Positions 16,533 to 43,453 of a DNA stretch of 64,000 nucleotides are shown here, one piece after another. The position numbers and the translations under genes are program-made. The DNA is from Antonospora locustae (taxonomy: Eukaryota > Microsporidia): positions 62,001-126,000 of the forward strand of contig CM017452.1 of NCBI GenBank assembly GCA_007674295.1. Direction: 5' to 3'. Positions within the stretch are counted from its first letter, which is position 1, and every line of letters begins with the position of its first letter. The notes beneath the pieces are model-generated. The model saw only the letters and a list, made by a program, of their open reading frames with translations. It was not told where the DNA came from and ran no database searches.

Positions 16533-16778
16533 ATTTTTTAAATTTTTGGCTCTTTACAATCCGCACCGAAAAGTTCCAGTGACCTGAGATGGATGATGCT
16601 CTTGCGAGGAAAGTTTTCTGCCTCAAAAAATAAAAAGTCATACGCACGGGGATGTTTGCGCTGACGTCTCTCCCTTTCAGTAATCAACCAAAAAGCAATA
16701 AATAAACACATCCTTATAGCACTTTAAAAAATTCATCGGTCTCTCTGATTCGATGTGCTACAGCAAAGAGAAGAGATC

Positions 16779-17400
16779 GTCATCAGGCAAGTATTAGGGT
16801 TAAAATCTTCTTTCTTCGCGAACTTTCTACAAAGAAGATTAAACACACAAGACGTTTTCACCGGACATTGTCATCAATTAGGGTTTAAAAGTTCTCTTGC
16901 AAAAAGAAGGACCTCGATATATCCCAAGGAACCTTGGGAATGTGAACAGGTTTTCCAGTAAGACGAGGTGTAATATGTATTTTTTGAGCACTCCCTTTTA
17001 ACTGCACACTTACGTTGTACTTATCGTCCCTCCTTAATGGGTTGTATTTTCGTTTTTGCAAATCCATTCTTAACTGAAGAACTTAGGTCAAAAAAGGTTT
17101 CTGTGGTATTTCCAGCCACTGATTGTTGCAAATTATTGCAATGACAAGCGGTTAGAATCTTTTTATAACAGAAGAACTCAGATTTTGTTTTTTTTATAGA
17201 ACTTAAAACGTGATATACTAAAGATACCCTGGAACGTGAAATCCTTTAACCTTTAAAAAATTCGCGGTTCAAATGGTTTTCGAATCAAACCACCTGTCAA
17301 AGATACACAATTGCGAGCGATTTAATTAAGACTTTCTTCTAATGGTTAAATACGGTTTAAAGCAGAATATTTCTTACAAAAGAAGAGATGGGAATTGTGC
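16779..17400. repeat. Cluster of decayed short repeats at the left margin of the AT-rich block
   Basis: Related segments recur near 16779-16845 (GTCATCAGGCAAGTATTAGG...), 16870-16915 (GTCATCAATTAGGGTTTAAA...), 17135-17180 (TGACAAGCGGTTAGAATC...) and 17340-17390 (ATGGTTAAATACGGTTTAAA...). Each continues into an A/G-rich ACAAAGAAGA-like stretch. Identity falls from left to right as AT content rises. No complete element is visible. Confidence 0.4.
16885..17067 (-). pseudogene. Short ORF, possible gene remnant
   Basis: This 60-residue frame with ATG at 17067 has non-random, protein-like composition (KYNPLRRDDKYNVSVQLKGS, then HITPRLTGKPVHIPKVPWDI). It has no start signal, ends abruptly and lies among decayed repeats. 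It could be the leftover of a gene or mobile element, or chance. No family is recognised. Confidence 0.25.
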
Positions 17401-18995
17401 AATGTAAAAAACATGAAACATCTCTCAGAGCATTCTTTTCTTAGCATTCTTATCATGGTTCAATGTCAAATTTTACAGTTCAGGTTTCATGCAAGTAACA
17501 TCCATTCTCGTTCATAAAAAGGAACCTTTCTTTTCATTCAGAACGCAATACACCTTTAACATATTAAGGTGAATAGAAAGATCTCTTTATGCTGTAAAAT
17601 AAGGTTATTCGCACTTAATAGCAAGAAATGCGTTGTTTGTGGAAGTGCATAACTAACTAGAAAGTACATGTAAAGACAGAAATAAAATGCGTGTTGTTAC
17701 AAATTCTGCCAGAATGCGATATAAATAATTCATTTTAGTTTAAGTTTAGTTTAAGATATGTATTAAAAGCTCCGTGACATTTAGGAAACATGTCTGTATA
17801 AAAATAAAATGTGGCTTGTCTTGCTTGTTGGAAAAGCATAAGCATTTTATAAGAATGATCAATTTTTCGTGTGAGGATAACGTTCAACCTATAGGTGGAG
17901 TTAGTATAAATACAAGAATCCCTTCCTATATAACGTATTATTAAATTCTTTTTATACCAGTTGTAGTATTTAGAAAAATCAACACACATAGATCTTACAG
18001 TAGGGTTAACATAAATTTTCTTTATGGAAGAGATCCTTGTTTGATTAACTTCTTATCTATCTAATTCAAATTAATTTAAACTGGTTTTATGCAAATATTA
18101 AATTACATTAATTAGATTAGTTAACTTATAGATTTTATCTTTATTTTATTAGATGGAAAGAAAACAACTATAATTGATCTATCTTATTTGTGTTTGAAAT
18201 GCTCACGGTTAATATTTTCATACAGTAAACATTTTAAATTTAAGCATTTTGCTTCTATAATTGAGGAATATTAAGAAGAAAGAGAAAGCCAGAGATTGGT
18301 TCTACCAAAAAATAGTTATCACAAGGAATGAAATGTAAATAAATATTATAAAGGTACTTATTATATATTGTAAATCTTTATATACGTATGTAGTTTACAT
18401 GAAAAAAAATAATAAACATCCTTTCTACAATATAACATTATTAAACAAGACCTTGAACCAAAATATGAAGCTGACAATGTTATACCAACATTTTATTCGT
18501 CGAGATGGTTTTTAATGAAAAATATCTTTCAAGTAACTTTTGCTTTATTGTAAAATTCCAATAATAAACTTTTTTGAAATTTAAAAATTTTATCTCTTTA
18601 TTAGTAATTGGAAATGAAATTAGAGTTGATGCCTGTGTCTGATTTTGTGAATTCCATAAAATGGCAATTTTGTCAATAAATCATTACTACAAGAAACCCA
18701 GTACTCGACAACCAGTTTTGAAGACATAAAACCAAGTTCATTCGTGTATCTCACGTCCACATGATGGAGTTTAACTGCTTAATCAGAAGTTGTTAATAAA
18801 ACGTGATACTTCCAATGAATGTTGGTGCTACAAGCACATTATAACACGATTAAAAGACGTTGACTTGTATTATGTTAAAATATTGCTTGTGTAGTAAATA
18901 CATACGAATATAAAAAAGGTTTTAAAATTCCTAAAAATAAAAAACTAAACATACTTATTCACTGTTAAATCAAATTAAGCTTACTTTTTTTTATC

Positions 18996-19074
18996 ATGTA
19001 ACAGTTTTATTAACATTTCCATATTGGAAAACTTCAATAAAGCATCTTCAGGGTTGCAAATTCATCATGTAAAT
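18996..19074 (+). repeat. Dispersed repeat family A, AT-decayed copy
   Basis: TGTAACAGTTTTATTAACAT leads, followed by TTTCCATATTGG and GGGTTGCAAATTCATCATGT. It aligns over about 78 bp to the GC-richer copy at 57694-57768; several differences are C to T or G to A here. Confidence 0.65.
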
Positions 19075-22000
19075 ATTACATTAAATTTTGGAGTTCGCCA
19101 AGCCTTTATGTTTGTCACTACTCGCAACTTTCGTACTCGTTTGTAAAATAATGATTCCTATATTCATGTATGTTGCTACTATCGTCGCCACCTGCAGATT
19201 ATGTTAGTTATTTATCAATCAATTTAAAAGCACAAGATTACATTATTAACTTAAATATGAAATATAGTAAATTATAATTTCATTACACATAGTTAAAAAT
19301 ACAGTCCATGTATTAACAATAGGAAATATATGAAAAGAAATGAATAAGTAAGTTTTAAATAGACTTAAACATCTTTCAGAAACCTAAAATACATGTTCAG
19401 TTTCACAATAAGTAAGTAAAGTAGATTTATTTACAAATAATATAATGAAACAGAGTTGGTTGGTATTATCATCATGTATTTACTTTCACTAATATTACTA
19501 TAAAAAATTTTGTTAATAACATTACTTAGAAACTAATAATAAATAAAGCTGTATTTATAGTTTTTATATCCATTGTTTAATTCGTTCATATCAATTATAG
19601 TTAAACAGGGTCTCTTGCGGAGTATTTCACAATGAGCATTTGGCTATAACCAATATGCTCTTTCTAGATTAAAATAATTAAAATTAAATTTATTCTTCAT
19701 TAGAAATGATTTCTCGAAATGTGTCATAACAACTTCTTTTTGGCCATTTTGTACCAAAAAAGTTGAAATATTTTTAAAGTATATATTTATTGGCTGAAAC
19801 ATAGACTAATGCTTTTAACTAAAAAATAAGATGAAACAAAATATATCTGATATGGTGTATAAATTCTAAATTTTCTTTAAAACAAATGCATATTTATGAT
19901 TTTTAAGTAATTAATGAAATGTTATGTCTACTAAATTAAATAAAATATTCTAAAATTTGAAGTATTTTTTAATGTGTATGAAATTATATATATGATTTTT
20001 ATAGGAGCTCATTTAACCTTATTAATGATAATTTCCAAATACTTCTAAAGTTATAGTTTTTTATTCAGAAAGACCATTCCGTTAGACCTAAATGGTTATT
20101 AAGAAACAGTCTGCTGAAAATCGTTTTCAGAATAAAATTCAACAAACCTTCCCACTATTGTGTTCAATTATTATCAATAAATTTAACTTAATATAAAAGA
20201 TACAAATTTATAAAATAATAATAGTAAATAAAAATGTACTATGCATTTTTCCATAATGTCTCTTTTGATACATGGTATATATAATTTTATATTTAAAATG
20301 ATCACGAATAAAAAATAAAGGTGACAACAAACAAGATCTTAGTATAAGAGAAATTTATTAGATTATTTAAGATTATTAAGAAACTATGAAAAAGCATAGT
20401 TGTATTTTACAGTTATAAGTTTTTAGCTCTATGTATAGTATGAGACTTGAATTTTCAACTAATACAAATTTTTTATTTTTTTGTATGTATCTAACGAATA
20501 TTTTTTAATAAATGCCAAAACTAGATTTACTTAACTTTATTGATACATAAATTCACATTTTTATGGTTTAAAACTAGTAAAGATGATTTGTTTATGCAAT
20601 ATATAGTGAAAAATAGTTTCTAATGTTTCATATCTAGTGAACCTATTTTTAAAACTTCAGTATATATGTACGTAGAAAAATATATTTATTAGTTTAATAT
20701 CTTATTGATATAAACATATAAGTTTAATTAAAATATTTTTCTAAAGAACCTGGGCTTGTGAAACTCTCGTTATTAGTACTGTTTGATTCTGATACAGAGT
20801 GGCCCTTAACCAATAAAACAATCTTAATAAAGAGTTTTAATTTACGTATTAAGTGTTTATCAAGAATGAAAGTTTTAGATGAGGTTTAAATGATATTTTG
20901 TATTTGTTTTCATCTATTAACTAAAACATTTATATTGAAAATCTTTTTCAAATAAATAGTGTAATATGTATTTATACAATAGTATTAAATTTTTAGCTTA
21001 TGTATTTCAACTAATTATTTTATTGTATAAAAAAATTAGAATTAAGAATATAAACATATGTTTTAATTTATACTCTTTCAAACATAGGTTAAACTTTTAA
21101 TAAAAAAATATTTCAAGAAAAAACAATATAGACTATTAAGTAAAAATTACCTTCAGAAATAACTTTCAAGTTAAATAAATTAGTATTATAAACTATGCTT
21201 TCCATAGTATACATGTGAATAACCTTAATAAATAATAATTAACATTTTGGTTTATCATAAACTTACAAGTTAATATTTACCTAATTTAATCAAAATTATA
21301 TTTTATGTGTAATTATAGAAACAATTTGAAATATAAACTAAAAATAACTGAATTATCATTTTATAAACAGTAAAATCTTTTTATTCTTTTATTAATTTTA
21401 TTAAATTAGTAACGGTATTACTATTAATTAATAGATTTATATAATGTAAATATAGATTATTTTGCTTTACTAGGACTATAAAACTTGCGTAATTTCTTTT
21501 TAATCTTAGCGTATAATATTAATTGCTAATAGTAATCAATTGCTATTTAACAATGATCATTTGAGTATATTAAAAATAACGTTTTTAAATAAAACTTATC
21601 CTATCATCTTAATAATAATCAAATTACAAAAATCTCTTGTAACTAATTTCAGCATCTTTGTTTACATATATAATTTTTCACTTTTAACAATATTATGCAA
21701 AATAATCTCATCATGATACACAACTATTTTGTAATATAATCTTGTCTAATCATAATGTCATTAATAAAATGATAAAAACTTAACTTTGTTATAAATAATT
21801 ATGAATAGATTATTATCATAGCCTGTGCAAAAATAAATATTAAAAGTTACAAATTTTTAAGTTAATTCGTCAAACATAATTTACATATTAATAATACTAA
21901 TATTTATCATATACATAAATAGTATTTACATTATAGTTTTATATAATTCTACTTAAAAACATATGCTACAAAGAAACTCAGGTTATAAAGCTGTATTTTG

Positions 22001-22880
22001 AAACATACTTAAATATACTTTTTACTTTGTGATTATTGTAACTGAATAAATGAAAATAAATTACAATTTATTACATTATTACAAAATCACAGTTTTTCAT
22101 TTATAATAGCTATTAAGAAAAAGCAATGTGTAAATTTTTATTCATCTATATATTTGACTGTTATCATAATATACAAATATAAGAAATATTGTGTAACTGT
22201 TAAATGTTTTTCAGAAATTTTTAAACGAGTTATTTCATCATTTTTAATTATGATTTATAATACTAATTTTTTATTAAATTAAAATAACATAATAAAAAAA
22301 TATTTAATAAAACCTTTGGTTGATATATTTTAATATCTAAATCATTTCATTTAATTCAAAAAGGAAAATAATAAAATTTTAATTTTTTTAATTAAAAATA
22401 ACAATATATCACAATATAAGTTTTAACAATATGTTAATTATTATTTTAGTTGCAAATTTTTTAAACATTACTAAGTTCATTTATGCTAGGATTAAAAAGT
22501 AATTTTTTCATATATTATTATTTTAGTTTATAATAGATTTTTTATGTATTTTTTAACACTAATGATATGTTTTACATAAGTTAGTTTTGATATTACGATA
22601 GTCAATAAGCAGTAAAGTATATATTGAAATTGTTAAAAAAACTATATGTGTTTATGTTTTAATTTTATGAGAAGCCAGCCATTCTATACTTACATAAACA
22701 CAATAAACATAGAGTTATAAGTTATACAGTTTTTGAATAAAAAAACAATTATCTACAATTCTATTAACTCATGCGTCCGAGTTCTGAAAATATGTTTATT
22801 AAAACAGATGGAAGAATTATATGATTGGAAAAATCAATGATAAATGACATTACTCTAGGGCGCATTATTGTAGATCGAAA

Positions 22881-22937
22881 CCAAGTGGGATGATTTAGAA
22901 AGGTTCTCTAATGTGTAACTTTAATAAAACTGTTAAC
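22881..22937 (-). repeat. Dispersed repeat family A, AT-decayed copy
   Basis: Read on the minus strand it begins GTTAACAGTTTTATTAAAGT and continues through a TTAGAGAACCTTTCTAAATC segment to CATCCCACTTGG, paralleling the other copies with moderate identity. Confidence 0.45.
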
Positions 22938-24147
22938 TTAAAAAATAACAACTCTCACTTGTTCTCTAAATTAAAAGTATCTACTTATGGAAAACTTGTA
23001 GAACCTAGATAAATTAATTATATTATATATTATATAGTACACTTTCATTGTATTCATTTAAAGCGTAAGATTAAAAAGTAAACTTTATGTCTTTGTTCAT
23101 AAGACTTTATTATAAAAATATATTATTTTAGAATTATATATATACGTATATGTTTTATAAAAATAGTTAAACAGTTTTATTACCAAAATTCTAAAATAAA
23201 ATCATATGCTAAAAGCACCAACTGGTTATACCAAATTTTTTTACATCAATGATTTATATATAAATAAATATTAATTTGATCATGAAAATTATCAACATGT
23301 TGTTATAGTATATAAAAATCAGACATGTTTTATAAAAATAGTTGGTGAGTCATTAATTATATTATTTTCCACAAGACGTTATTTAATAACAATACACTAC
23401 TTAAGTTTATTAGATGAAAATTTTTTGTTGTAAAATTAATTTATTTTGTAACTTTAAATATAAGTTTTAGTTAAACATACTAATTTACATTATTTCTTAA
23501 ATTTTGCTATACATCATCGACTTATAAATTCATTAAATTACATATTTATTGAACAAATATAAATTTAAATAATACATTATTAACTATGTTAGATAATTAA
23601 CTTTCTATAATACTTTTTAACATTTTAAAACTATACATATTGCTAGTTTTTTATTAAATAATAAAGCATCAAATAAAAAGTTATTATAGGAAACAACTTA
23701 TGCTTAATATTCATTAAAAACCAATTTATTTTAAACTACGTTTATTACAATTTTATACTTTATTTTAAAAAAACAGCATTATGTTCTTTTTATTCTATGA
23801 TTTATCAAAATATCTACTAAGCTCTGGAAAGTGTTTGTTATTTATATAACAGTGCTTTTACAATTGTATTAACATATTAATTCAATTTTATTATTATATT
23901 AAAATTTATATAAATTTAAAGTATAAAAGCATTATATCTATTTACTAAAAAAGTTATAAATGCTATAAATTTTTCAAATCACCATTGTTGGCCACAACTT
24001 ATTTGGGCTGTTTAGGCACAAAACCTTTGAATTGTAGATTTTGTTAATAAAAAATTATCTAATTTTTTTATGCATATATTGATTAAATGTTTGAAGAAAG
24101 TACTACGAATTTAAATTTAAAAATAATGAAGGACTTTCCATAAATCA

Positions 24148-24205
24148 AAATGCAACAGGAACAAGTTAGGCTGTAACCAGAGAAGACACTTTAAGAAACA
24201 TACCA
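24148..24205 (+). repeat. Dispersed repeat family B copy
   Basis: It contains ATGCAACAGGAACAAGTTAG followed by GCTGTAACCAGAGAAGACAC and TTTAAGAAACA, closely resembling the copy at 39755-39805. Confidence 0.45.
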
Positions 24206-27200
24206 AATAGGAAGAGATAATAAATAATGCTCTTTATAAAAAAAATATAATAATGATAGCTGATGTTATGTTATTTAAAATGATACATTAGCTTATGATA
24301 TTTACTTATGTTTTTTGTTTTCACATTACGCAGATATAATATTATTCAAATGAATATACTTGTATTACATTTTGTATAACAAGTATGATGTTTCCTATTT
24401 TAATTAAAAATTTATGAATAAACAACATATAAAAAGGTTAATAGTATATATCCTCAAATTATCGAAGTTAATTTAATTTTGTACTTAATTTAATATATTA
24501 TTTTGTTATTGTTACCGTTACAATTTTATTCGATTAATATTTAAACATAATTTCTTTTTAAAATTGAACTATATCATCTAAAACGTTTTTCATTTTTACT
24601 TTTAATTTATATTTTGTTAAAATTAATTAGTAATATACTAAATTAAAATTTTTATTGGTTTTAATTTAATTTATTGAAGGAAGTTATCATTTTTTATAGT
24701 GTTTAGATGAAATAATTGTCATATATACCCAATTAACATTATTGATTATGTGCTATATAAAAAATATAAGCTTTACAATAATTTGAAGTTCATAATGTAC
24801 AAAATTATTACAAATTGTTTATCGTAGAATTTACTACTTATGAACACATATCTATATTTATTGTCTCTTTATCATCTAATTTTAAAATTATTGGTTAAAC
24901 AATGAAATAAGTACCATGTTGTTATACTACTATCATGTAATAAAATTACAAATATGCTGATTTTTTTTACAAAAATTTTTCAATTTTATTTTTTGAGAAG
25001 AACTTTATTCATATCTCATACAGGAAAATTTCCTGAAATTTCACATGGTATGGTTCACCTTATATTGTTGCATTCGAGCTCCTAGCTATAAGTATATATT
25101 GACATGTAACACGTTAGCAAATATAAATTTTTAGTATATTATTATTTTATTAAATAAAAAACATTAATTTAAGTTGACAATACAAATTTTTAGGTAAAAG
25201 TTAGTATAATTTATCTAAATTATATTGATAATCACTTTAATATTTAAATAATGATATTTAAAAAATTTATTTTTCTAGTATGTTATTTTGTTTAATTACT
25301 TGATTTATAGTAAAAATTATAATTATTTATTTCAATCTTTATAAAAATTTATTTATTACTTTTACCTATATAGTTTTTTAAAATTACCATAATAATATAA
25401 ATAAGTATAGATAATTTAAAAACTATTATAACTTACAAAGATTTTGTATATTTACGAATCTTTTTATTTAAATGTAAGTTGAATGAAAACATCATCGATT
25501 TAGACACCTTATAAAATTAAACAACATATACTATATTTTATATAGATAATCGCTATAATTTTAATATAACCTTTATCTAAAATAGAACACATGCGATATT
25601 AAAAAACCACTAACTAATAATCGTTTATTATATGGACCTTAAACTTTAGTTCCTATATTTTAGGTTAATGTTTATTAAAACATATGAATACTTATCAAAT
25701 GTTAAAAGAATAGTAACTAATATAAATAAAGCTATGTTAAGATAAAATGATCAATAAATAAGTCGTAAATAAAAGAAATGTCTAGTTAAATATGATAATA
25801 TTACTTTATAGCTGGTAATTAATGTTGCAGTCGATTTTTGAAAATTGTTTATAAAAATATCATTCTTATAGTTATGATAAAAAAGCTTATAAAATAAAAC
25901 TAAAATAAAATCATTTTATTTTTAAATTAAACTGATAAACAGTGATTGTAGATATCTATATTTACATTATGAAAAAATAAAAACTCAGAAAATGTCACGA
26001 TAACGTATAAATAATGTATTATACCTTGTAATGTTTTGGTTTTTATTTATGAACTTATGTTCAAAATTTTGTTAAACTATAATTAATTTTTTATCTCATT
26101 TTATTTAAGGAACTTGTTTTTTAATACAATTAATTAAAATACTGAAACTATTATAAAACTTTTTAACATTATTTTAATATTTAAAGTACTTTTGAAATAT
26201 TTTTTGAAAAGTAAATTTGAACACAAACATGAGTTTAAACTTTCAAATAACATTTACATTAACTAAATAATAAATCTTCAATCTTTTATTAAAATATATA
26301 TTATTTACTCATATAGCAAATTTATGTAGATTTACTTATAGTTATTTGTTATTTAATAATACTTTATAATTTGTTCCTATTGTATAGTTAATATAAAGTT
26401 CAATTATAATAACATATTATATTATTAATACTTTTAATAAATTTTAACTAAATAAAACAACTAAAATAAGAATACAACATATTTTGCTTAATGTAAATAT
26501 CATAAAAAACATCATCTATAAAAATACTATTTATTTTAAAGTAATATTTACACATTGTATAACTTTATTATATAATATTTTATTCATTGAAAATACATAC
26601 TTGATATCATATTATTTTTATTAATTAAATATAAGTAACTCTTTATTATAAATAGTTTCTATTTATAATACAAAATTATAAAAATATAATGTTAAAGAGG
26701 GAAAATATTTAATATTTTTAGAATAATTGATATGTTCTATAAATAAAATAGTATTTTTACATGAAACGCAATATTTTTGGTTATATTTAAATAAGAACAT
26801 AAGACGTATTTTTAAGAGTACACTTAGATGAAGAATGTCGCAAGAAGACGATCGCAAGAACAATGTTAGTAATATATAAGTATTTTTATATTTTCACTGG
26901 CAAACAAGTAGAGATATTCGTTCTAGTGACAGATTAAATATCTTGAAAAACAAAGTCATCGCATATATTCAACTGAAACTAGCAGACGTTTTGTACAGGA
27001 TTATTATAGAATGTGGATATTTGCTTACAAAACGGTTATCACAAAAAATATTTTTGAACTAAGCTTATTTTCTATAAACATTATAAAAATTCTTCTAGTT
27101 ATTTCTTGGATTATAATGTAGTCATAACAAGCTATCACATCATTATATAAAGTATTAAATTATTATTAAATATTTTTTTTATAAGTTAGATATAGATAAT

Positions 27201-27724
27201 TATTACTTTACATCTGAATACCTAGCGTCTAAAAAATTTTATTAATTAAAATATAAAAATAAACATCATTAAAATAATTGTAGTATATTTTAATATAATA
27301 CATAAGCTTTTTTTTACTTTATTATTATAATTTAACATATTAGTTTATTTATATCGCTTTCCAACAAAAAATAGATTAAAAAAACTTTTATAAAAAAATG
27401 TTCTTATATAGAAAGGACTGTTTCAATAATTTCCTACATTCATAGTAAAAAATCTGTTAGAGATAATTTCTAGTACCAGGCACAATAAACTTCATTAATT
27501 TTGTGTTTAACTTTTTTCTGTTGTAACATACAAAACCTTTATCTATAACAGATTTATTTTTTAAACAAGTTGTTGCTAATTTCTGTTTTTTAATATATCA
27601 TGTTATAAATACTTGCTACTCTTTTTGTTGTCTTCCTTTTATTTTAGCTTAAGTCAAGCTATGTTTCTATTTTAAGAGGAAAATTGATATAATCACATCT
27701 ATGCACTATTAAAACATTAAAGTA

Positions 27725-27862
27725 CCGTCAAAGCGGATACAATGGAGGAAGGCTCCAGCGAACACAGGATACTGACGGGATGTGTCTATAGAAGCCATCT
27801 TAGAAGCTCCACAGAGTGAAGAAGGACTAAATCTAGAAAATAATCCTGTGGGGCAAAATGGG
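27725..27862. other. GC-richer relic island inside the AT-rich block
   Basis: About 140 bp of near-50% GC sequence starts GTCAAAGCGGATACAATGGA and contains many purine-rich codon-like triplets, but stops occur in all frames. It stands out sharply from its surroundings and is probably a remnant of a gene or mobile element not yet eroded. Identity unknown. Confidence 0.4.
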
Positions 27863-30800: not shown

Positions 30801-31859
30801 CCTTGAATGAAAAAGTAGTTAATAATATAAGAACATAATAAGTAATGTGAATTAAAATGCAAACATCATTAAAATATATACTGTATAAAAATAGAAAATA
30901 TTTATATGACAAAATAAAAATAAATATGGAAACTTTGAAGTTTTATAAATTTAAAGATACAAAGTACTAAACATAGTATAATTTGTTTATGTTCTTCTTC
31001 AATTAAAGTATATTTTAAAAACTAAATAAAATATAAATAAGTACTAATAACAACTAAAAAATGTATCTTATATTAAGTTATTTTCAAAAACTCGTTTTTA
31101 ATTTTGAAATTTCAGATATGACATGAATTGTTAATATTTCATGTTTTATTTCTAATACGCACTTTATTCGATACTTGTATGTTATAGTAATCATATTAAT
31201 AATACAACAAAATAAGTTTTTTATAACTCGTAAGTTAAATTTTAAATTATATTTACATTACTTAATAACTAAATTTAATATTAATATATTAATATCAATA
31301 TATTAATCTTTTGTGTATAAAAATACATAACATAAGACAGTGTAAAGATTGTATGCATTTTATTACAAAAATTTTTATAACACATGTCATTTATATTCTT
31401 TATTAGATAATTAATATATTAAACTTATGTAACTGTGCGTATTAATATATACCTATATACAAATTACTATTTATCTGTAGTTTAAAAAGTAACAAAAAGA
31501 ATAACATTTATGTATTTTAATTAATACATTTAATTTTATTATGTGTTTTTTAAATTTACAATTATATTTATAGATTTATATCATAATATTTTATTTTAAC
31601 TTTATTTACCGTTTTTACCAAAATTATGAATAATTCTTTTTATTTTATAGACAATATTATCATTATACTGTAAAAGTATATATAGTCAACTTATTGTAAA
31701 TATTACTTATATTAACGTTGGCGCTTTTAATATCAGTTATTAGGTTTGTATTCAAATAGTATTAAACAATTATAATTAGTTAGTTTATTTCTAATATAAG
31801 TTATTATTTCTAAATATTTTTAACATATAACATATTTATTAGAATCTCAAAAAAGTTTT

Positions 31860-32010
31860 TCTGTGTAGTTAAAGGATGCAATAACAAACATATGTGAGCA
31901 ACCTTAATGGCAACAATAACCTTTCTGTGGTCGCCATCCATTTGGGTGAGCAACGATGCTCTGTAAGAAGATGAAAAATGCTGTTCATTGGGATTTTTTG
32001 TACAGAATTC
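31860..32010. other. GC-richer relic island inside the AT-rich block
   Basis: This patch (AGGATGCAATAACAAACATA, then GGTCGCCATCCATTTGGGTG) carries a minus-strand open frame of 76 codons (31810-32040) without a start signal. The reading is not protein-like enough to call a gene. Confidence 0.35.
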
Positions 32011-33340
32011 CCTAATTTGTAATTTTATTGATAAAATCATTTTCTCAAAAAATATATTACAAAAATTTAAAATTTATCATCTCATTTGTTTAATCATGTT
32101 CAATTTTATTTACAAACTAACAACTAAGTTTTACATAAGGTTACTTTGAAGTTTATTAATTAACAGAAATATTCTAAAGTTATCAGTTAAATCTTGCAAA
32201 AATATAACATATATTACGGGATTTACTGTACACATCTTTAAAAATTAAAATAAGTTTATTTACTGTTATTACATCATTAACATTTTTAATACAACTTTTT
32301 ATTTTCTATTAATGATTGTTGTATATCTTGTATAATTATAACTATTAAAAAGTAAAAGACTTATTTATAATTTTGAATATTGTATATATAGTCAAACTTT
32401 TCATTATAAATTTAGAGATAATATATTATATAATAATTTGTGTAATGTTTGTAAGGTTTAAAGAAATTGTCTCACCATAAAATTTTATTTATTTGTTTCA
32501 TTAATAATTTTAAAGTCTATGATTTTTATCTAAACTCGTTTAACTTTTTTTCAAATTCAAAGTTTTCTATAAACACCTTTTAAATTTAGATAATTCTGTA
32601 CTTTTGCAATTATCACAAATAGCCCTTAAATTTGGTGAAATACTACTTTACTAAAGCAGTCAAATTAATGACAAATATATGTTAAACATTTAAACAAGGA
32701 TATTTTAAAATACTGTGGCTAATAAATATACTTTTCTTATTAAATAATTGTTATTTTAATTAAAAATATCATGCTATGTTTAATTAAATTAAGATTATAT
32801 GAAAATACATAATAAACAAATAGATTTACAAAAAGTTTTTATTATATAAATAATTGATATAAATACATGAAATTGTTATGTATTAACACTTATTAAGTTA
32901 TAAATAATAAAAAATGTCTTAAATTTTTTAGAAGGTATTTTTAACTATATTTTTACTAAAACGTTTTATACGATTATTTCTATTATATTTAAAAAACATT
33001 TATTTAGATAAAGAAATGTATGTTTTACGGTAGAATTTGAAATAATATACATAAATTAACTTTTTTATAAAGTATTATACAAAGATATTTTTCTACAATG
33101 ACCTACCTTATGTTTATATTGTTATTGATAATAAAATGAAATAATACTGTATAACAATTGGTAATAAAATTAAACACATTATTAGATAACTTGTCACAAA
33201 AAATGTTTTATGTTTTTATATAAAATACACCTTATCTCTTCTATATATATAACTACTCTAGAAAATTATAATCATGCTTTTTGTTTCATATATAAACACT
33301 AACGTTAGCTATATTTAACATATTATTTCCCTATTTTTCA

Positions 33341-33416
33341 CAGTCACAATTTTATTGACAAACTAGCGACTTTATCATATTTCTAACAAAAAGTCCAGCA
33401 GTTGCGACTATCTGTG
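33341..33416 (+). repeat. Dispersed repeat family A, diverged copy
   Basis: CACAATTTTATTGACAAACT ... TTTCTAACAAAAAGTCCAGC ... AGTTGCGACT aligns with the minus-strand copy at 38806-38880. It ends just where a hydrophobic 98-codon frame (from TTG at 33402) begins; that frame is probably fortuitous. Confidence 0.5.
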
Positions 33417-34707
33417 TTTTTTGCTCTTAGATTTGTCTGTATGTGTTTAGTTTGTAATTTCTTGTATAATTTCTGCACATCTGTGGATGATGACATAAAA
33501 ATAAATGACTGTTTCTCAGCATTTTTGCTTATAATGGGTTTTCTGTTGAATCCCGTTCTCCTCTTAGGAGTACAACTTTTTCTATTTGTTATATTGCATT
33601 TTCAAATAATAAATTTAGAATGTGTTCTATGTATTTTACTATTCTTATTTTTTATAATAATATTTTGTATATTTTTTTGTTCATTATTACCATTATAAAA
33701 TAATGATATGTTTTTGCTCCATTCCTGTGATGTGATAGGATGTAAGAATAAACATACTTAAAGTGAAGATTGTAAAAAAATAACCATCTTCTTGTCATAA
33801 TATGAATACAAAAAGAAATTGTGCATTATTATAAGTCAAACCAAATATCTCTGTGAAGTAAATTGTAAATCTCATTTTATGCCGCAACTGGATAGAATGA
33901 ATATTTTTAGCTTGAATTCTCTATTTTAAAACTTTTTAATAAAACTGTTACTAAAAATAAGTGATAAAACAATCTTTTAAAAAATAAAAAATATACTATT
34001 TATATTCACATATAATACAAAGTATTTAAACAATGTTTTTAACGATAACATGATTTATTGAATTTAATTTGATGATAGTTGTTGATTATTTATACATTAA
34101 AGTTTAATGCCTAATGATTTGTTTTAAATAATATATGTATATATATTATTTGTCGCTAATTTTTTGAACAATTTTATCATTGTGATACTCCTTCGTTCAT
34201 GTTTAGAAGCCATTTATTTATCAAGTTCATTTTGTAACATATAAGCATTGTAATGCTTAAGTATTGTATATGATATAGTAAATCATCGAACTTGTACTAT
34301 GATAATTACTACATTTAAAAATTGATAGTTATTTCCATACATAGATAGTATGTAGCGTCTAATATAAAATATATTATTACTTATTTAAAAAATATATAAA
34401 TTAAATAATTAGTAGTAATATTATCTTTATTTAATCATACAATTCTACAGTTATGTATAAAGGTAAATTAAAGTGAATACTAAAGTTAATAATTCAACTT
34501 TATAATAAAAAGATGTACTTTAGATATACAAATATTTTGTTAGGTAAAAAATATGGATATTAATTTTAAAGTATTATATTATTTATTACAAGAAGATTTA
34601 ATAATTATTAGTAGAAATGTAAATATCACCTTAAAATAAAGACAAAGATTGTTATTTCATATAATAGTATATTTTTGTATTAAAAATTAAAAACACTTCT
34701 ATGAACT

Positions 34708-34776
34708 AAATGGGGACGCAAGAGTTGCAACTTTTAGTAAGCTTCCTGATTTAGAAATCATAATGAAATTGTTATC
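34708..34776 (-). repeat. Dispersed repeat family A copy
   Basis: On the minus strand it begins GATAACAATTTCATTATGAT and ends near GTTGCAACTCTTGCGTCCCC. It shares 19 of 23 bases with the 38806-38880 copy over the leading part. Confidence 0.6.
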
Positions 34777-34999
34777 TTTAAAAAAATTTAAAACATTTTA
34801 TATGTATTTATTAGTTAATTACTTCATAATTTGTAAAAAGTATATGGTAGTTGTAAAATAAAAATCAAAATGACTGTGATGTAAAATAATGTTACTAAAA
34901 AGTTAGGCAAAATAATTGTAGAGACATTATGTTTTATATTAATTTGTTATATTATTATTTTGTTTCTAGTTAACAATTTGATTTATATTAGGAGTTTTT

Positions 35000-36180
35000 C
35001 CTAAGGAATCGCGGCTGGTTGTGATCCATATCTCCCCCACGTTACATTTTGGTTCACGATCATAAATATTTTTAATGGTGGATTTGCTTGAATTTAATGC
35101 AGGTGCCACTGTATTCTTTTCTCCTAACTACTTACTGAAACATTAAATTAATTAAAACTCTTTTCTAGAATAACAAGCCGATCTGAACTGTACTCTATAT
35201 TTATATAATATACGATACGTGTAGAAAGCTAAAGTCTTAATCAGTATCTTGACCATGGCTGTTACCACGGTACAAAATCGTTGTGTTACATTACCTGAAA
35301 AAGCTTCCTAAATACAGCTGATTCCTTCTGTATATCGCTGCTGTTTTACAAATTTCTCAGAGCTTGACTAGGGTTGAAACTACTGCAAATAGTTAAATCT
35401 TTATCGTAGTATAACATTTACTTATTTATTTCATATAATTAATATTATATTACTTGCTTATTCTACGTACTATTATTTATTTCCTAATAAGTTAAATGAA
35501 ATAAAAATATGGTAATCAATTTTAACATTATTATGTGTTGTTCTTATTTATAGTAATCATACGTAATTTATAAAAGATCAGTAATATAAATCTGTTTTGT
35601 AGATACTTCAGCTAATATGAGACTATAACTTGTAACAATTATCCAATAATTGATGTTTTTTATTATTATGTGATTTTATTATTATGTGATTTTAACATCA
35701 TGGTTTTTTATATTTATAAGTCCTAGATTGGAAAACTTCTTTTATATAAAATAGCATCATTACAATTACATAAATTTCTCATTTTTAAAGTTACGTTTTT
35801 AATAAAATTATATAAATTACAAGTTAAAACTAAAGCTTTCCAATTAATAGAACATAACATGTGTATTATATAATTGATTTGGAACATTTTTTCTTGAATG
35901 TTTTGCTAATGTTATTCATGATAATAAACTCTCTACATATATTATGATACGCAATTAAAACTTTTTATATATTAATCATAAATATAAATAAGCACGTGGT
36001 CTTAGAAGGAGCGAAATGCAGCTAATCCATTATAATCTTGACGAAAATGTCACCTATCAGTGTTCAATCATTTTCCAAGAAAGCAATGATGCTCTGGGAA
36101 ATTACCTCGGTATAAGACCTTTTATAAACCGATGTGCAACGGAGAAATGTGTGTTGCAACCCTGGACACTTTAGATGCTT
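35000..36180. other. GC-richer patches within the AT-rich block
   Basis: Moderately GC-rich patches lie at about 35005-35065 (AAGGAATCGCGGCTGGTTGT), 35225-35390 and 35995-36180. Frames are interrupted throughout. The last patch ends in a repeat family A copy (36145-36210). I see no gene. Confidence 0.35.
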
Positions 36181-36210
36181 TCCTAATCTGAAAATCTTGA
36201 TAAATCATTT
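36145..36210 (-). repeat. Dispersed repeat family A copy
   Basis: On the minus strand: ATTTATCAAGATTTTCAGAT, then a TTAGGAAAGCATCTAAAG segment and GGGTTGCAACACACATTT. The last part matches GGTTGCAGCACACCATG of the 57.7-kb copy. Confidence 0.55.
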
Positions 36211-38805
36211 ATTTTAAAAAACATTTTAGAATAATATTTATCAAAAAGTAATTAAATTGTTCTTTAATATGTATTTCAAATTATACTCACCTTAACAATT
36301 TAAATGTATTAAAAAAATGTATTTAAATTAAAAACATCTATGTTTGATTTTTTTATATGTTAAAATGTTTTGTTTATAATAAAAATTGATAGTAGGCATA
36401 ACATACATTTTATCATCTTATGTATAAAATCACCAGCTGTTAAAGTGTATATTATTAATATAAAAAGAGGCCAAAGTATAAAAGATATACAAAATGAGTA
36501 TGCAGTAACTTGTTGGTGTGTTTTCAGATAAGTTTTCTGAGGTGTTGATTTTATTCAATAAAAACAAAATGATAATGTTAAATGGTTTAAAAAATTAAAA
36601 ATTCCAAAAATTTTTTGTTATAATTTTATTAACAAATCATCCTAAATGTGAATTTTAGACACAACTCTCAATTTTGAGATCCATATATGTTGTTTATTTA
36701 ATTTACAGAATATCTAGTATCACATGATGTGAAACACCTATCTCGCTTGAAAATGATGCAATTTGAAATTTAATACAACTCTTTTGACCCATTCATCATC
36801 TAAAGTGAATTCCCTATAATTCTGGCCCTCCTCCTAAAAGAAATTAATAGTTATAATTATATACCATGTTTATTTACTGCATATTTAACAACTTTTTCTA
36901 TAAAAAAGTATTGTATATGATAAAATAAGTTTATATATAGTATATAATAAATATTTCTTTATTAAATGTTAGACTAGAAAATTATAATATTAATGTCAAA
37001 TAAATCATATGTATGTTTTAAATATAAAACTATTTTTAAGTATAAAATTTTATTATTCATTTACCATAAACTGAAAATATAAAAAACTTGTTTTTATACA
37101 GTATATATGTATATGATGTTTTGAAAAATAGTAATATTTTTATAATTTATTATACATATTTCATTAATCTCTGAATAATATAACGATTTTTTGATTAATT
37201 ACCTTTTTATAAGAACATATTTATAAGAACATTGTGTTTTCATATTAGTGTTGTAAAATAGCTTTCATATAGTTTAAGTAGTGTTTGTGTTTAATTTCAT
37301 ATATAATACACATTGTTACAAAATGTTCTAATAATAAAAATTTAAAAACATATTTTATTTAAAAATATTTCGTCAGTAAAATATATATTTATTGTAAATA
37401 TAGGCGCATTCATATAAAAATAAAATAAATACATTATGTTGTATATATGGTCACTAATTTAACTACAAATATCCTTTTTGCTGATGCAAGTATATTGCTA
37501 CTAAGAGTAGTTGTGTACGATGATGGAGATGCTTATTAAGTCTAGAACCAAGAACTTTCACAGTTTACCTCATAATAAACATTTTTATTTAAAAAAGGAC
37601 CTTTTAAATAAATACGTTCTTTTAAAATTACATCTTAAATTAAAATTATTAAATGTTCATTTATTAGAACCATGTTTTAACGTATAAAATAAAAGTAATT
37701 TACTCAAACGCATACTTAAGATGAGTATTATATAATTTGTATGAACATTTTTCTTAGGTTAATTTATAAATAACGACTATTAATTAATATAACATCTTAT
37801 TATATGTAATCTTAATATGCAAATATAAATAATAAATTTTTTATTTACAAAAAAATCCTTAATAGATAAAAGTATTTGATAATATTAAACGAAAAAATTC
37901 TATGGTAAACCTATCCTTAAAATTGTTAAAAATGTTTTGTTAATCGAATCAATAATTCTATTGTGCCTAGTATATTTAAAAATTATTGAGTACAAACTTT
38001 TATTTAAATTAATAGTTACTAAATTGAAAATAAAGAAACAACTCTAATTTTACTACTGTATATTGACTTTAATGATATGATTTATAGTAAATTTTTGAAG
38101 TTCAATAGTGCTTTCAAATTATTTTGCGCTGAGCTTGTTTTATTTAAGTGTATTTTTTATATTTGATCTTTAAATACAAAACCATTTCGTTTTGATAATA
38201 CATAACATTTTATATTATTTTAAACACCCTCCAATTAATGATTTTGCTAGTAATAAAAGCTATAATAGTATTAATTTTGATAATAAAATTTATAAAATGT
38301 ACTTTATATAAATAAAAATATTTAAATTAAATAGTTGTGATTTTTATTTTATACAATTAAGTAAATTTTATTTTCAATTTTTAGTTACTATATAATTTAT
38401 GTATAAATGAATAATAAAATTAATATTACGAGCATTATACTTAAATAAAATGCACCATAACTTTATATAAACTTGTTTTATATAATTTGATGTATTTTAA
38501 TTTAAGTTTTTATTTGAATAAAAATATGTAGTAACTAATAACTTGTTTCATAAAGTTATATTTTTTTACTATTTATATGTATATAAAATTTTATAGGATT
38601 AAGTATAATAACATAAATTTAAAAATAAAACTAGTATTACAATTATACTTTTTAAAAATTAATTGGTTTTTTGTTAATTTAAAGCAACTTTATAGCATAA
38701 AAACCATGTAAAATTTTAAACTGGTTGTTATAAAGTATTTATTAGAACATTACATAATTATTTTTATTCAAAAAAACAAATAAGAGAGAGCCATTATAGT
38801 GAATA

Positions 38806-38880
38806 GGTACATGGTGAGTCACAACTGTTGGATGTTTTGAGAAACTTCTCTTATCTGGAAATTTTAACAAAATTGTTATC
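38806..38880 (-). repeat. Dispersed repeat family A copy, best preserved in the block
   Basis: On the minus strand it starts GATAACAATTTTGTTAAAAT and includes TTTCTCAAAAC, CAACAGTTGTGACTCACCAT and GTAC. It matches the 57694-57768 copy at roughly three quarters of positions over 75 bp with one gap, with transitions toward A/T here. Confidence 0.7.
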
Positions 38881-39754
38881 TAAAAAAAGAGAGATAATAT
38901 TTATAAAATTTCTACTTGGAAATATCCTTAACTTTGTCTAAATTACTGAAACATATTCATGTTAACTAATTTAAATTTCTAATAGTAAATTTATTTTTTT
39001 ACAAAATTTCAATATACAAAGTTTTTATAAAACACTTTTTATAAAATGTATGAACAAAAACATCTCCTAAAATAATACTTGAAAGTAATTGAATAGTAAA
39101 TAAAATGAATTAAATTGAAAGGTTTAGCAAGATTACTAGTGCTATTTTTTAGTAAACATATTATTGAATATTTGTTTATAGATTGATTAAGAGTTAACAA
39201 ACAAATTATTTTTAAAGTCACTATTTAAAAAATCTTAATAAATTGCATTGCTTTAATAGCTTTTTTATATTTTTAAAAAAGATTTTTATGTATATTTTTA
39301 AATAAATATAATACTTATTTTTTTGAAATAAATTAAACAATTCGCAGAATATATGTTATTACCATCTACGAATTTCTTTTTAAAATTTGACTATGCATCG
39401 TTTAAAATAAATATTATGAATTAGTTAAATCAATGTTTCTTTAATTTAGAATATGGTTTACAACTCGTGAAAAATATAAACCATTATATCTAGAGTATAT
39501 TCTTCAATTAGCTATAATATTTAGTATTATCACTAATTTTTTCAATAACACTAAATAAAACTATTTTCAAGATACTTCCTCATATAGTTATATATATGTA
39601 TTATATTAATATCTTACATATACATATGTACTTTATTATGTAAAAGTACAAACGTTTTCATATTTAACGTGCAAAAATTTATTTGAAACATATAATAAAT
39701 ACAAATAAATGAATTTAGCTATATAAATTTATAAGTGGATACAAAATAAAATTC

Positions 39755-39805
39755 ACGAGTCAAAGTGCAACAGGACGATGTAGGCGATAACTGTGAGACG
39801 CTTTA
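39755..39805 (+). repeat. Dispersed repeat family B copy
   Basis: AGTGCAACAGGACGATGTAG, then GCGATAACTGTGAGACGCTT and TAGAATAAC. It is similar to 24148-24205, and its second half recurs at 42348-42375 (GATAACTGTGAGACACTTTG). Confidence 0.45.
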
Positions 39806-41599
39806 GAATAACAAGTATTTATTAAAGCTGTTTCCTAAAAAATACAAAATAAAATGATAGAAGCTAAAAATTAATTATTAAAAAAAGTATTTTTCATCTA
39901 CTAATTTTAGTAAAATGCATGTTTTTTTATCAATTTAAATAAAATATGTAATAAAAACAAAATAGATTTATGACTATTATAAAATAAAAAATGCTTGATG
40001 TATATTTTATAATCTAATGACTTTATAGAATTTACACTAAACTAATGTATATTGATAAAAAGAAAATAATGTATAAAATTAGCGTTATTTTTTCAAAAAA
40101 GAGTTGTTAATGTCCAGAAAGCTTACAAAAGACTGCCAATTTGAGACAGTTTTCAGAATCGAACAAGATGAATTTCATCGCCATAATATACAGAATTCCC
40201 CATAATTACGTTATATTTGTTTGTGCCGTATATAATCCACTACAAGCAAAATCTATCCATGTAAGACGTCAGAAAATAGGTAAATATTGAAAAATAAACA
40301 TATACTTTGTTTGGTACATTTTTTTAAGTACGTTAAAGACAATTACAATTCCAGATCATAATGTAAGATTTCATATAAAACATATCATATATCTGTAGTT
40401 CTCTTCAGCTTAGCAATAAACATGGTATACATATACGAGCAATTACAATGAAAGAGGCACGCACAAAAGAATACATACTCCTCACCTAGGATTTTCATAT
40501 TAATATGGAGATAAAAATATGAAATAATAGAATACCATAACTGAGTTATTGATAGGAAGTTGACAAATTGAATTTTGAATGTACTAAAAGTTGACAATCT
40601 TTGGATATATCTTCTGAGTATGTGGCACCAACTTTCTAATGTCAAGAATATATAGAAATGTTAATAGTTTCCCTAGTCACTTAGTCTGTAGGGTTTTAGC
40701 TGATAAAAGTCAAATGGTATCTAACTCTGCGAAGTTTCTGCCTTTTTAATGTAGACTAAGAAAGAGGTTGTGATGAGAGAAAAAATTTGAAAATCTAATA
40801 TTAAATAATACTATAAATTTCGTGTCATTCATATTTCTCATACATTTATTTTAGATATAGTTGTCATTGTAAAATTAAATTTTATTATATGTGATTATAA
40901 AATATCTATATGGTTTATTCAGAAAGGCTCTTCTCTTTACATTTGAGCGTGAAACAATCTGTTAGAGAGCGTATACAAAACTACAATCAACAATTCTCGG
41001 CTAGCAACCAAATATGGTACAGTTCTCCATAGATAGGTTCCATATTATAAATGTAGGCCTTAATATTTTATAAAATATTATTATACATAAAATTAGTGTA
41101 TGTAAATAATGATTATTAAGAGATTTATGATACATATTTTACAAATTATTTTATTTTCAGTTAACCTTATGTTTTTACTTAAGCTTTTTATATTTATTAA
41201 TTTTTATTATATATATAAAGGTATTTTTGTACTTTTGTAGAAGTTTGTTTACAAAATATCTTTTGCCTTGTTAAACTAATAAGGATCTATAATATACAAA
41301 TTTTTTATAATGTTTCTCAGGTTATTGTTGTTAGTAACTTACTGTTTATCACTTTAATCAAATAACTTTGTAAAGTTATTTTTTTAAACAAAGAAATCAA
41401 TAACTAATTTATATTTATTTGAAATTATATCTGAGAATGGAATATCTGAATGTTGCATTGTTCCTCATATAATTTTGTTTTTTTATAGATAAAATTACTT
41501 TACTTTTTTATTATGAAACTGTATACAATACATTAAATTTTAATGATTCATTTACATGTTGTTAAAACAAACTAGTTCTCATTATTTTAACAAAAGCTT

Positions 41600-41810
41600 G
41601 TATTTAAACAAGAGCTTTTTCTTACCTCTGCGCTTTAAATTGCAAGCTGAGGAAGAATGCCGGCGAAGTATCCTTTGTTGCGAGAGGGGCTGAGCACAAA
41701 GTGTGAGAGCAACAAGATTTATTGTGTCTGGTGCTGAATAGAACTTCAGATGTTTCACGATAACCATTCGGTGTAACGAAAATGGCCTTTCTGGACAAAA
41801 TTCCTAATAC
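41600..41810. other. GC-richer relic island near the right margin
   Basis: About 200 bp with clearly higher GC (GCAAGCTGAGGAAGAATGCC, then GAGAGGGGCTGAGCACAAAG). A minus-strand frame of 61 codons (41582-41767) starts with ATG and is basic (ending RRGKKKLLFKYKLLLK). There is no start signal or recognised domain; it could be a decayed gene or element. Confidence 0.35.
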
Positions 41811-42413
41811 CCAAAAATACCAATATTTTCCTAATATTTTCTAATACTGTGTTAACATATTAAAAAGAGGAGTGGGGTTTGTTATAATAAAAAGCTTAAG
41901 AATATTGACAAAAGAATAATATATTTAACTTAGAGTTAAATTGAATATTTATTATAAGTAAACCATTGTGTTCAATTTTAAAAAAAAAAAAAGAGAAATG
42001 TTTGGATATTATGTGAATTCTAAGAATAGAGCTAAATAACTTTCATAATTGTAATGAATTTTTTATGTGTTTGAGAAGAGAATAATGAGCTGTTATATTC
42101 AAAATAAGAATGTTCTGTATTCTACTCTTGAGAGTTATCTTTAGTTTGTTGTGAAAGAGAGCGTATGTAGGGTATGAATCCATGTATAAAATGAATGTAT
42201 GTTTTAGATTATAAGTTAATGAGTTTTGACACTTGTATTTATGAATTTTTAATTTTATTACCATGTGGTTTTTATAAATAAAATTTTTACATAAAAAGAT
42301 CATTGTGCGTTTCTTTTTTTTTTTGAGAGAAATTATCACTCGTTTCTTGATAACTGTGAGACACTTTGTTCAAATGCTTTAAAAGAAGTGAAAATTTTGC
42401 AGGTAGAAAACTA

Positions 42414-42430
42414 TTAACCCTAACCCTAAA
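42414..42430 (-). repeat. Short telomere-like tract
   Basis: TTAACCCTAACCCTAAA contains two adjacent CCCTAA units, the complement of TTAGGG. Single TTAGGGTT-like sites in the opposite orientation lie at the other margin (16796-16803 and 16879-16886). It could be an interstitial telomere relic or chance. Confidence 0.35.
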
Positions 42431-42439
42431 ATACTTTAT

Positions 42440-43453
42440 TTTACATAAAAATAATTAACAAATTCTATTCGACTTCTTACTCTACATTATTTACATAAAA
42501 TATACTGCAATTTCATTATTTCTAACTTGATTATTATTTATTCGAGACTTATAAAAATAACTTTATACAATGTAACATATTGTACATATTCTTCATTCTG
42601 TCAGGATGTTTTGCACAAGTTTCTTCATAACAAAACCTTGTTGTACAAAAAAACTTATATGTGATTCAACAGAATACATAGATCATTTTAGAAATCTTCA
42701 CAAAAAACTACTTTGTTTTTATTTATTGCATAATAAAATAATATTTCAAACTCTTAAACTATAAATTAAGGGTAAAATATAAATATTTGTGTATGCATCT
42801 ATGCATTAAACTATGCGCATCAATGATTTTATTTATATTCACAAAGTTGAAGAGCCATCAGGGTTACAACAACAGGCGTATGTAAATCATTTATATTTCA
42901 TTCCCAATTATTGTTTTATCCCCCGTCGCAAAGATCATTTTATTTTATCTCACTAATTAATTGATATTAATAGTAGTAGAATCTGGAATGTAGTAAAGTA
43001 AAAAACAAAGTGGTTCGTAAAATTTTTAAATACTTTTTCTTTTTGCAAAAATAAACATTCAATGTATCATTAAAATAAAACGCTTTATGCAAAAATTAAT
43101 AAATTAAGCAAAGAAATCGACGTAGTTTTATGCACACGAGTTCTTTTGCTTGGAAATCCTATATTTTATTTTGGCTTTTAATTTTTCTAACAAACACAAC
43201 TTCTATTTTTTTGTTTTATCTCTTTTATTGAAGAATTCTTTCTAAAACTAAAACCCTTCTCATTAAGTTACCTACTTAGTTGCACAGACAAATAGACAAT
43301 AAAGCAGTGCATAAACAAACGTATTGTATAAATTCTACCAATTAAGGAAAAGCATGCGCATTTGTGCATTTTATTGCACAAAACAATGTTTAGTCATTGT
43401 TGCACACTCATCCAAGTATCTTGTCCCAGAGAGATAAAAAGAAGAAGAGTTGT
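42440..43453. other. Right margin of the AT-rich block
   Basis: AT-rich sequence without a gene. It contains T-rich tracts downstream of EF-1alpha (about 43150-43250), which is read leftward into this region, so transcription termination probably occurs here. Confidence 0.5.

Follow-up and report, generated by a model that had tools for sequence, protein, structure and literature searches.

An ultra-low-GC, gene-free block inside a chromosome

The window analysed here, a 64-kb stretch of DNA from the locust parasite Antonospora locustae, raises the question of what an ultra-low-GC block of about 25 kb (17800..43300), which lies internal to the chromosome and is free of genes, does between gene-packed arms. 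The first-pass annotation had proposed a regional centromere. As delimited by the GC profile and by open reading frame (ORF) simulation, the block had a mean GC content of 0.21 in 300-base windows, as against 0.45 in the arms, where the lowest value in any 300-base window was 0.33. In 1-kb windows, GC fell from 0.46 (15–16 kb) through 0.38 and 0.32 to 0.17–0.28 (18–43 kb) and returned to 0.45 (44–45 kb). The left edge was graded over about 2 kb, from 0.42 at 15.75 kb to 0.22 at 18.0 kb, and included a shoulder (16000..17800) in which GC dropped from about 0.36–0.40 to 0.29. The right edge was sharp (0.23 at 43.0 kb, 0.44 at 43.5 kb) and coincided with the end of a minus-strand gene (43454..44890), which we take from its translation to encode an EF-1-alpha-like protein. 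The last long gene of the left arm (15268..16023, minus strand) encodes a protein that appears by eye to have zinc-knuckle and RING-like motifs.

No ATG-initiated frame of at least 100 residues was found across 16,532–43,386. Counted from stop to stop, no frame in the block exceeded 108 residues, a length within the range of Markov simulations (mean 100, maximum 140). Frame numbers were somewhat above simulation, with 118 frames of at least 40 residues (101 ± 10.5 simulated) and 26 of at least 60 (15.6 simulated); GC islands overlapped six of the ten longest. None of the seven block frames scanned matched a Pfam family, and a frame in the left shoulder (16200–16532) gave one match, under its cut-off. 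Neither a tRNA nor an Rfam family at gathering score was detected in the entire window. These results bear out both the low GC content and the absence of genes that had been claimed for the block.

Dispersed elements in the block

The statement that the block is not a tandem satellite also held, as the tandem units within it were just 14–22 bp long, with about two copies each. The best pairs of long direct or inverted repeats spanned only 24–54 bp at 70–92% identity, and such pairs often arise by chance. No retroelement gene was found in the block; the only RVT_1 match in the genome, on contig C2, belongs to the telomerase gene (Telomerase_RBD), and relics without a recognisable RVT_1 domain would escape this search.

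The decayed dispersed repeats mentioned in the first-pass annotation do exist, yet they became visible only through profile searches. The block carries 13 copies of two decayed families, A (about 200 bp) and B (a core of about 70 bp), called from profile matches that were absent in simulated sequence (none in five databases per family). The family A copies in the block, which were also recovered by a profile built without the copies of the window, lie at 19496..19671 (minus strand, decayed), 20060..20260 (plus), 27404..27602 (plus), 37398..37612 (minus), 40914..41130 (plus) and 41594..41799 (minus), together with a weak fragment at 21543..21593 (minus; E = 0.0007, or 0.0011 with the profile lacking window copies). 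Genome DNA comparison gave 71–73% matches to the element at 40914..41130 on C7 (115.7 kb) and C8 (73.0 kb). The element at 41594..41799, with the highest GC content of the block copies measured (0.41), has a 98% identical copy on C13 (65.6 kb) and a 99% identical part copy of 135 bp on C16 (50.8 kb). Family B copies lie at 18998..19070 (plus), 22868..22934 (minus), 24998..25060 (plus), 36148..36204 (minus), 38809..38878 (minus) and 39776..39833 (minus). A further family B copy, in an arm spacer of the window (57696..57764, plus), is not AT-decayed (GC 0.39). Of the matches obtained, 2 of 18 for family A and 4 of 17 for family B were located in arms; additional arm copies of the elements were seen on C3 (133 kb), C5 (2.3 kb) and C9 (14.6 kb). 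No RNA structure was predicted for family A.

Besides these families, a 212-bp sequence (18700..18911) has a 99.5–100% identical copy on C10 (36.0 kb), at the edge of the low-GC patch of that contig, with unrelated flanks; inspection by eye showed no target-site duplications around the 212-bp piece. Pieces with 98–100% identity are common to C6, C10, C13 and C16, although these block-to-block matches have no matched arm control; they give only a hint of centromere clustering in the nucleus. Words of 8–12 bases pooled over three blocks contained no abundant shared motif. A/T words were in excess by up to about two-fold, and some rare words recurred, for instance one 12-mer with four occurrences where 0.03 were expected, spread over two of the three blocks. 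A relaxed (+1/−1) BLAST among blocks returned 5,569 rows, which were set aside: among the matches listed, nearly all had 56–59% identity over kilobases, a composition artefact.

A single low-GC patch on nearly every contig

To count such blocks across the assembly, we used GC point sampling, which gave a single low-GC patch on 16 of the 17 contigs; adjacent low samples on C3 and on C14 were each counted as one block. Half of these patches (8 of 16) rest on a single 300-base sample each, and the sampling gaps, mostly 20–24 kb wide and 28 kb in the terminal stretch of C17, could let a shorter second patch escape. At this sampling no second, separate patch appeared on any of the 16 contigs. If 16 blocks were placed at random by length, the chance of all falling on different contigs would be 2.8e-6. 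Their sizes were similar where they could be judged: the present block measures 25 kb, that of C1 at least 21 kb provided it is continuous, and that of C16 20–30 kb. Their places differed from contig to contig.

The exception was C9, where nine samples between 10 and 36 kb had GC contents of 0.20–0.39, an interrupted tract without a compact block, with additional low points at 70, 87 and 108 kb (0.28–0.29). The expectation of one block per chromosome was borne out on 16 contigs, none of which showed several at this sampling, and C9 comes close to being a chromosome with none, an outcome that the first-pass annotation had named as contrary to its proposal. Since the first 600 bases of all 17 contigs lacked a TTAGG array, the contigs are not complete.

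A regional AT bias with no clear RIP skew

The AT bias was confined to the region: spacers in the arms had a GC content of 0.44 and four-fold degenerate sites one of 0.47. Since non-coding DNA of the arms is not AT-rich, the block appears to have a mutation regime of its own that drives it toward AT. In Neurospora crassa, the AT-richness of centromeres originates from RIP, for which the usual cut-offs are a TpA/ApT ratio above 0.89 and a (CpA+TpG)/(ApC+GpT) ratio below 1.03. The block would pass both, with values of about 1.04 and 0.99, compared with about 0.63 and 1.38 in the left arm. These indices have moved from those of the arms in the direction of RIP, yet they lie near 1, the level expected of unbiased AT-rich sequence. 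CpG was somewhat low (0.74, against 0.86–0.89 in the arms). The mutation regime of the block thus shows no clear RIP skew.

Genes for CENP-A-like and CENP-C-like proteins

The genome contains three histone H3 genes, two with a standard tail and one, on C14 (98 kb), with a divergent MARTAF tail and an insertion in loop 1. We call the latter CENP-A-like on account of its tail and loop; it has relatives in species including Gurleya vavrai, and the solved chains closest to it are plain H3. A CENP-C-like gene on C4 (203 kb) encodes a CENP-C_C domain that scored 33.5 bits (30.2 for the 395-residue frame; cut-off 29) and an N-terminal RHSK...EYW stretch that did not vary across an alignment of four sequences, of which one is identical to the A. 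locustae protein. Its best PDB match was the inner kinetochore subunit cnp3, a weak one (E = 0.025). Chromodomain proteins are encoded on C4 (208 kb; 61 bits), C10 and C5. A. locustae thus encodes both CENP-A and CENP-C, as identified from sequence; taken as such, these genes show that the organism uses centromeres of this type but do not mark the block as one.

The block as a candidate regional centromere

We consider a regional centromere of this A. locustae chromosome to be the best explanation of the block, with a probability of roughly two in three. Single patches on 16 of 17 contigs, similar in size where this could be judged, the regional AT bias and the CENP-A-like, CENP-C-like and chromodomain genes favour it, as does the mapping of Malassezia centromeres to GC troughs (PMC7025860). 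The proposal of the first-pass annotation is supported in part: it agrees with the sequence, including the lack of a satellite and of any retrotransposon reverse transcriptase found, except on C9. The absence of a compact block there and the single samples behind half of the patches weaken this reading, as do the different candidates in Microsporidia sp. MB and the negative outcome of a 2025 survey of Microsporidia (see below). In part of the block, H3 would give way to the CENP-A-like variant; the CENP-C-like protein would bind the resulting chromatin and assemble a single kinetochore on each chromosome. Chromatin state, rather than a DNA motif, would maintain the site, as suggested by the three compared blocks, which have neither a common satellite nor an abundant motif but only scattered decayed elements. 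AT-richness would then follow from a state with no genes, little recombination and AT-biased mutation, in which sequences landing in the block drift to about 20–26% GC. While the anatomy of the block, the single patch on each of 16 contigs, the repeat families, the regional base bias and the genes are observed, we infer CENP-A occupancy, a kinetochore and suppressed recombination at the block.

The block could instead be a gene-poor, heterochromatic, non-recombining compartment, such as a pericentromere or a domain of late replication, with no kinetochore of its own, the centromere lying beside it or elsewhere. AT-rich regions are indeed not centromeres in every fungus, and element copies occur in the arms as well; a single patch on 16 of 17 contigs is, however, what would be expected if the patches were centromeres rather than ordinary heterochromatin, and we regard such a compartment as unlikely. 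A regulatory or expressed region serving the infection programme, as the 2020 genome paper reportedly suggested for ultra-low GC regions, would accord with the slight surplus of frames. It is highly improbable in view of frames no longer than chance, eight scanned frames without a Pfam match over cut-off, and the lack of tRNA and Rfam hits.

We give equally little credence to a graveyard of mobile elements whose AT-richness stems from methylation with deamination or from a process like RIP. The decayed elements, the lowered CpG and the displaced dinucleotide indices would fit such an origin, but those indices sit at the level of unbiased AT-rich sequence rather than pointing to a TpA excess or a marked loss of CpA/TpG, the elements found are short and occupy a small share of the block, and the one RVT_1 gene found is that of telomerase. 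That foreign or poor-quality AT-rich DNA was joined into the contigs is hardly credible: apart from the incompleteness of the contigs, no point supports it, and the differing patch locations, the graded left edge and the less decayed arm copies of block elements all argue against it.

Relation to known centromeres

Such blocks are less novel than the first-pass annotation implied. In 2020, Chen et al. reportedly described ultra-low GC regions of about 25 kb and about 20% GC on 16 of the 17 A. locustae chromosomes, and are said to have tied them to host–parasite expression and not to centromeres. To these regions the present analysis adds the element families, the mutation regime and bias, and the CENP-A/CENP-C candidates, which are new here together with the per-contig count and its C9 exception. 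A 2026 paper (PMC13174016) mentions "similar regions in A. locustae" in its centromere discussion and likens them to fungal centromeres.

The A. locustae blocks resemble Malassezia centromeres (PMC7025860; in M. furfur, each chromosome is predicted to have one) in being an AT-rich minimum on each chromosome with no repeat structure. They differ in being 25 kb long, without an abundant shared motif and identified from sequence, whereas the Malassezia centromeres are 3–5 kb long, with a core of less than 1 kb and an enriched 12-bp motif, and were mapped by ChIP. The centromeres of N. crassa are likewise long and AT-rich, but comprise 150–300 kb of transposon relics (PMC4589918), whereas the 25-kb block has no retrotransposon gene that we could find and no clear RIP skew. 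The candidates in Microsporidia sp. MB (PMC13174016) are similarly gene-poor (30–82 kb), with one on most chromosomes and CENP-A present; unlike the A. locustae blocks, they have a high GC content, carry methylation and abound in LINE and Ty3 elements. A Microsporidia-wide survey of 2025, in which A. locustae is not named, detected no centromeric regions from GC content or repeats, and published proposals for microsporidian spindle-attachment sites include subtelomeric, epigenetic, holocentric and GC-high retroelement sites.

With one block on nearly every chromosome and genes for CENP-A and CENP-C, the question of spindle attachment becomes testable in a single species. If the centromere reading is confirmed, AT-rich regional centromeres would extend to a highly reduced, early fungal branch, and their absence from Encephalitozoon would reflect loss or an altered form. 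A more speculative extension, which we hold as doubtful, is that the centromeres of A. locustae constitute a mutational compartment of their own, in which short elements and fragments spread by copying between blocks, perhaps during clustering, and then drift toward AT without recombination-linked GC repair. The centromere of C9 might then be at an intermediate stage, either too recent to have decayed toward AT or disrupted by rearrangement, and the 16 other chromosomes together with C9 would display the ageing of centromere sequence.

An AT-rich, gene-free block without a satellite

In a 1-kb GC profile of the window (C6 62,001–126,000; the assembly has 3,170,203 bases in 17 contigs), GC was 0.17–0.28 per kb from 18 to 43 kb, the left edge of this block being a slope and the right edge sharp. 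The longest open frames in the block were no longer than those in simulated sequence. These results bear out the AT-rich gene desert described in the first-pass annotation. Frames of at least 40 amino acids were slightly more numerous than in the simulation (118 vs 101 ± 10.5), and GC islands overlapped six of the ten longest frames. Rfam (gathering scores) and ARAGORN gave no match across the whole window. A tandem-repeat search found no satellite in the block, in agreement with the earlier statement on this point. Outside the block, a 36-bp tandem repeat (window 11351–11467; 3.2 copies, 98%) lies within an open reading frame on the minus strand (10796–11680), which is rich in lysine and glutamate and hydrophobic at its start and end.

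Low-GC patches on the other contigs

All 17 contigs were sampled, with 600 bases per left end and, on most of them, 300-base points about every 20 kb; sampling was denser on C1 and part of C2 (10-kb stretches), on C16 (every 5 kb) and on C9 (extra samples). GC below 0.30 was scored as low, the lowest 300-base arm window in the window being 0.33. By point sampling, low GC was met at one place per contig on 16 of the 17 contigs. Eight of these patches were supported by more than one sample: C1 146–167 kb, C2 57–66 kb, C4 143–160 kb, C10 37.5–43 kb, C16 50–70 kb, the block in the window (C6), and C3 60–80 kb and C14 64–82 kb, in each of which a pair of low samples separated by about 20 kb was counted as one block. 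The other eight were each represented by a single 300-base point, with a GC of 0.27 at C5 100 kb and C7 125 kb, and within 0.16–0.24 at C8 75 kb, C11 64 kb, C12 64 kb, C13 57 kb, C15 22 kb and C17 20 kb. Under random placement by length, the chance that 16 blocks fall on 16 different contigs is 2.8e-6, given sampling gaps of mostly 20–24 kb (28 kb at the C17 end). A divergent H3–H4 gene pair (C1:167.4–168.3 kb) directly borders the C1 patch.

C9 differed from the other 16 contigs in that denser point sampling met no compact ultra-low block there. Nine samples from 10 to 36 kb alternated between GC 0.20 and 0.39, and the region from 61 to 125 kb had a GC of 0.28–0.38, with points below 0.30 also at 70, 87 and 108 kb. 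The latter region has lower GC than other contigs despite containing at least one gene. Two identical inverted copies of a 231-bp sequence (C9:14583–14813 and C9:63810–64040) reflect either a misassembly or a recent event (inverted duplication or conversion). TTAGG arrays were absent from the first 600 bases (left end) of all 17 contigs. Because some of these ends share similar sequence, as judged by eye, the contigs probably stop within subtelomeric repeats.

Element families and the mutation regime of the block

Between 21 and 40 kb, we counted 16 higher-GC islands, as compared with a mean of 1.1 in base-shuffled sequence, and several of them are accounted for by two element families, A and B. 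Recovered by profile search, these families substantiate the decayed dispersed repeats noted earlier. Family A (~200 bp) is sharply bounded on the TTTATTT side. Its profile matched 18 times in 349 kb of sampled sequence (including 3.4 kb of arm counted twice), 16 times where local GC was below 0.30 (54 kb), giving p = 1.4e-11 by bases and 0.00065 against non-coding arm DNA, the fairer background. Without the five seeds, 12 of 13 matches were in low GC (p = 0.0017, same background), and a profile built without the window copies recovered all seven of them (weakest E 0.0011). Additional copies of family A are at C3:133 kb, C5:2.3 kb and C9:14.6 kb. Family B (~70 bp) had 17 matches, 13 in low-GC sequence (p = 4.1e-8 by bases; 0.024 against non-coding arm DNA). 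Neither profile matched simulated sequence. The families are not block-restricted: five of the six arm copies have a GC of 0.39–0.49 and the sixth, on C9, 0.31, the block copies having 0.26–0.41 (measured in family A for 12 of the 16, in family B for all 13).

Some sequences are nearly identical between contigs. A stretch of 212 bp where the block begins on the left (18700–18911) recurs with 99.5–100% identity at the margin of the C10 patch. One of the family A copies of the window shares 98–99% identity with copies at C16:50.8 kb, inside the C16 patch, and C13:65.6 kb, between a low-GC sample (57 kb) and a normal one (78 kb). Therefore, some movement between blocks is recent. When the best candidates of a genome DNA search were scored, the C1 block also matched the C5 end, and the C2 block matched only itself.

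Non-coding DNA per se is not AT-rich in the A. locustae genome. Because the pooled arm spacers of the window have a GC of 0.44 (6,261 bases) and four-fold sites 0.47, the block has its own mutation regime. Relative to the column majority, 12 block copies of family A showed 61 G/C to A/T changes at 222 cells and 65 A/T to G/C changes at 669 cells, giving an equilibrium GC of ~0.26, a rough value because most of the copies behind that majority are themselves decayed. In the block, dinucleotide ratios were near neutral (TpA 0.99, CpA 1.08, CpG 0.74); relative to the arms, they were shifted in the RIP direction up to the level of unbiased sequence, not past it. We infer that the AT-richness is caused by weaker GC-biased gene conversion under suppressed recombination.

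Putative kinetochore genes and the centromere reading

A histone search of the genome gave 10 matches, including three H3 genes. Compared with its two ordinary counterparts, the H3 at C14:98 kb carries an insertion of five residues in loop 1, and its tail is divergent; a diverged tail and a lengthened loop 1 are hallmarks of CENP-A. Sixteen relatives were found, and all 11 that were aligned have a MARTAF/MARTAH start and a loop insertion of 3–5 residues. We read this variant as CENP-A. A frame at C4:203 kb contains a CENP-C_C domain above the curated cut-off and a conserved N-terminal RHSK...EYW stretch, which we take to resemble the CENP-C motif. Chromodomain proteins are also encoded, and the sole RVT_1 match in the genome is telomerase.

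The confirmed block, the patches on 16 of 17 contigs and the CENP-A- and CENP-C-like genes favor the regional centromere proposed in the first-pass annotation, whereas C9 lacks a compact block and none of these genes, nor the chromodomain genes, proves centromere location. Judged from sequence, the block is likely a regional centromere.

The ultra-low GC region itself has reportedly been published: Chen et al. in 2020 are said to have described it in the A. locustae genome (~25 kb, ~20% GC, 16 of 17 chromosomes) and tied it to host–parasite expression. The centromere reading has already been hinted at in print; thanks to the per-contig counts, the mutation regime, the two families of elements and the kinetochore genes, it can now be tested directly. 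For Encephalitozoon, CENP-A and epigenetic, perhaps subtelomeric, centromeres have been argued (PMC10158259). In the species of PMC12449221, the text of which does not name A. locustae, GC or repeats reveal no centromeric regions, and holocentricity is raised as a possibility. GC-high retroelement regions are proposed as centromere candidates in Microsporidia sp. MB (PMC13174016, which also mentions locally reduced GC in A. locustae). Hi-C is presented in PMC12558613, the main text of which does not mention centromeres. Fungal cases exist both for (PMC7025860) and against (PMC4589918) equating AT-rich minima with centromeres.

Two diverged NF-YC-type histone-fold paralogues were noted by eye at C9:62.5 kb and C2:218.8 kb. 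One H3 gene has an eL27 gene as its neighbour, whose protein and chain LZ0 of PDB 6zu5 (presumably the Paranosema locustae ribosome) agree at 127 of 127 residues.
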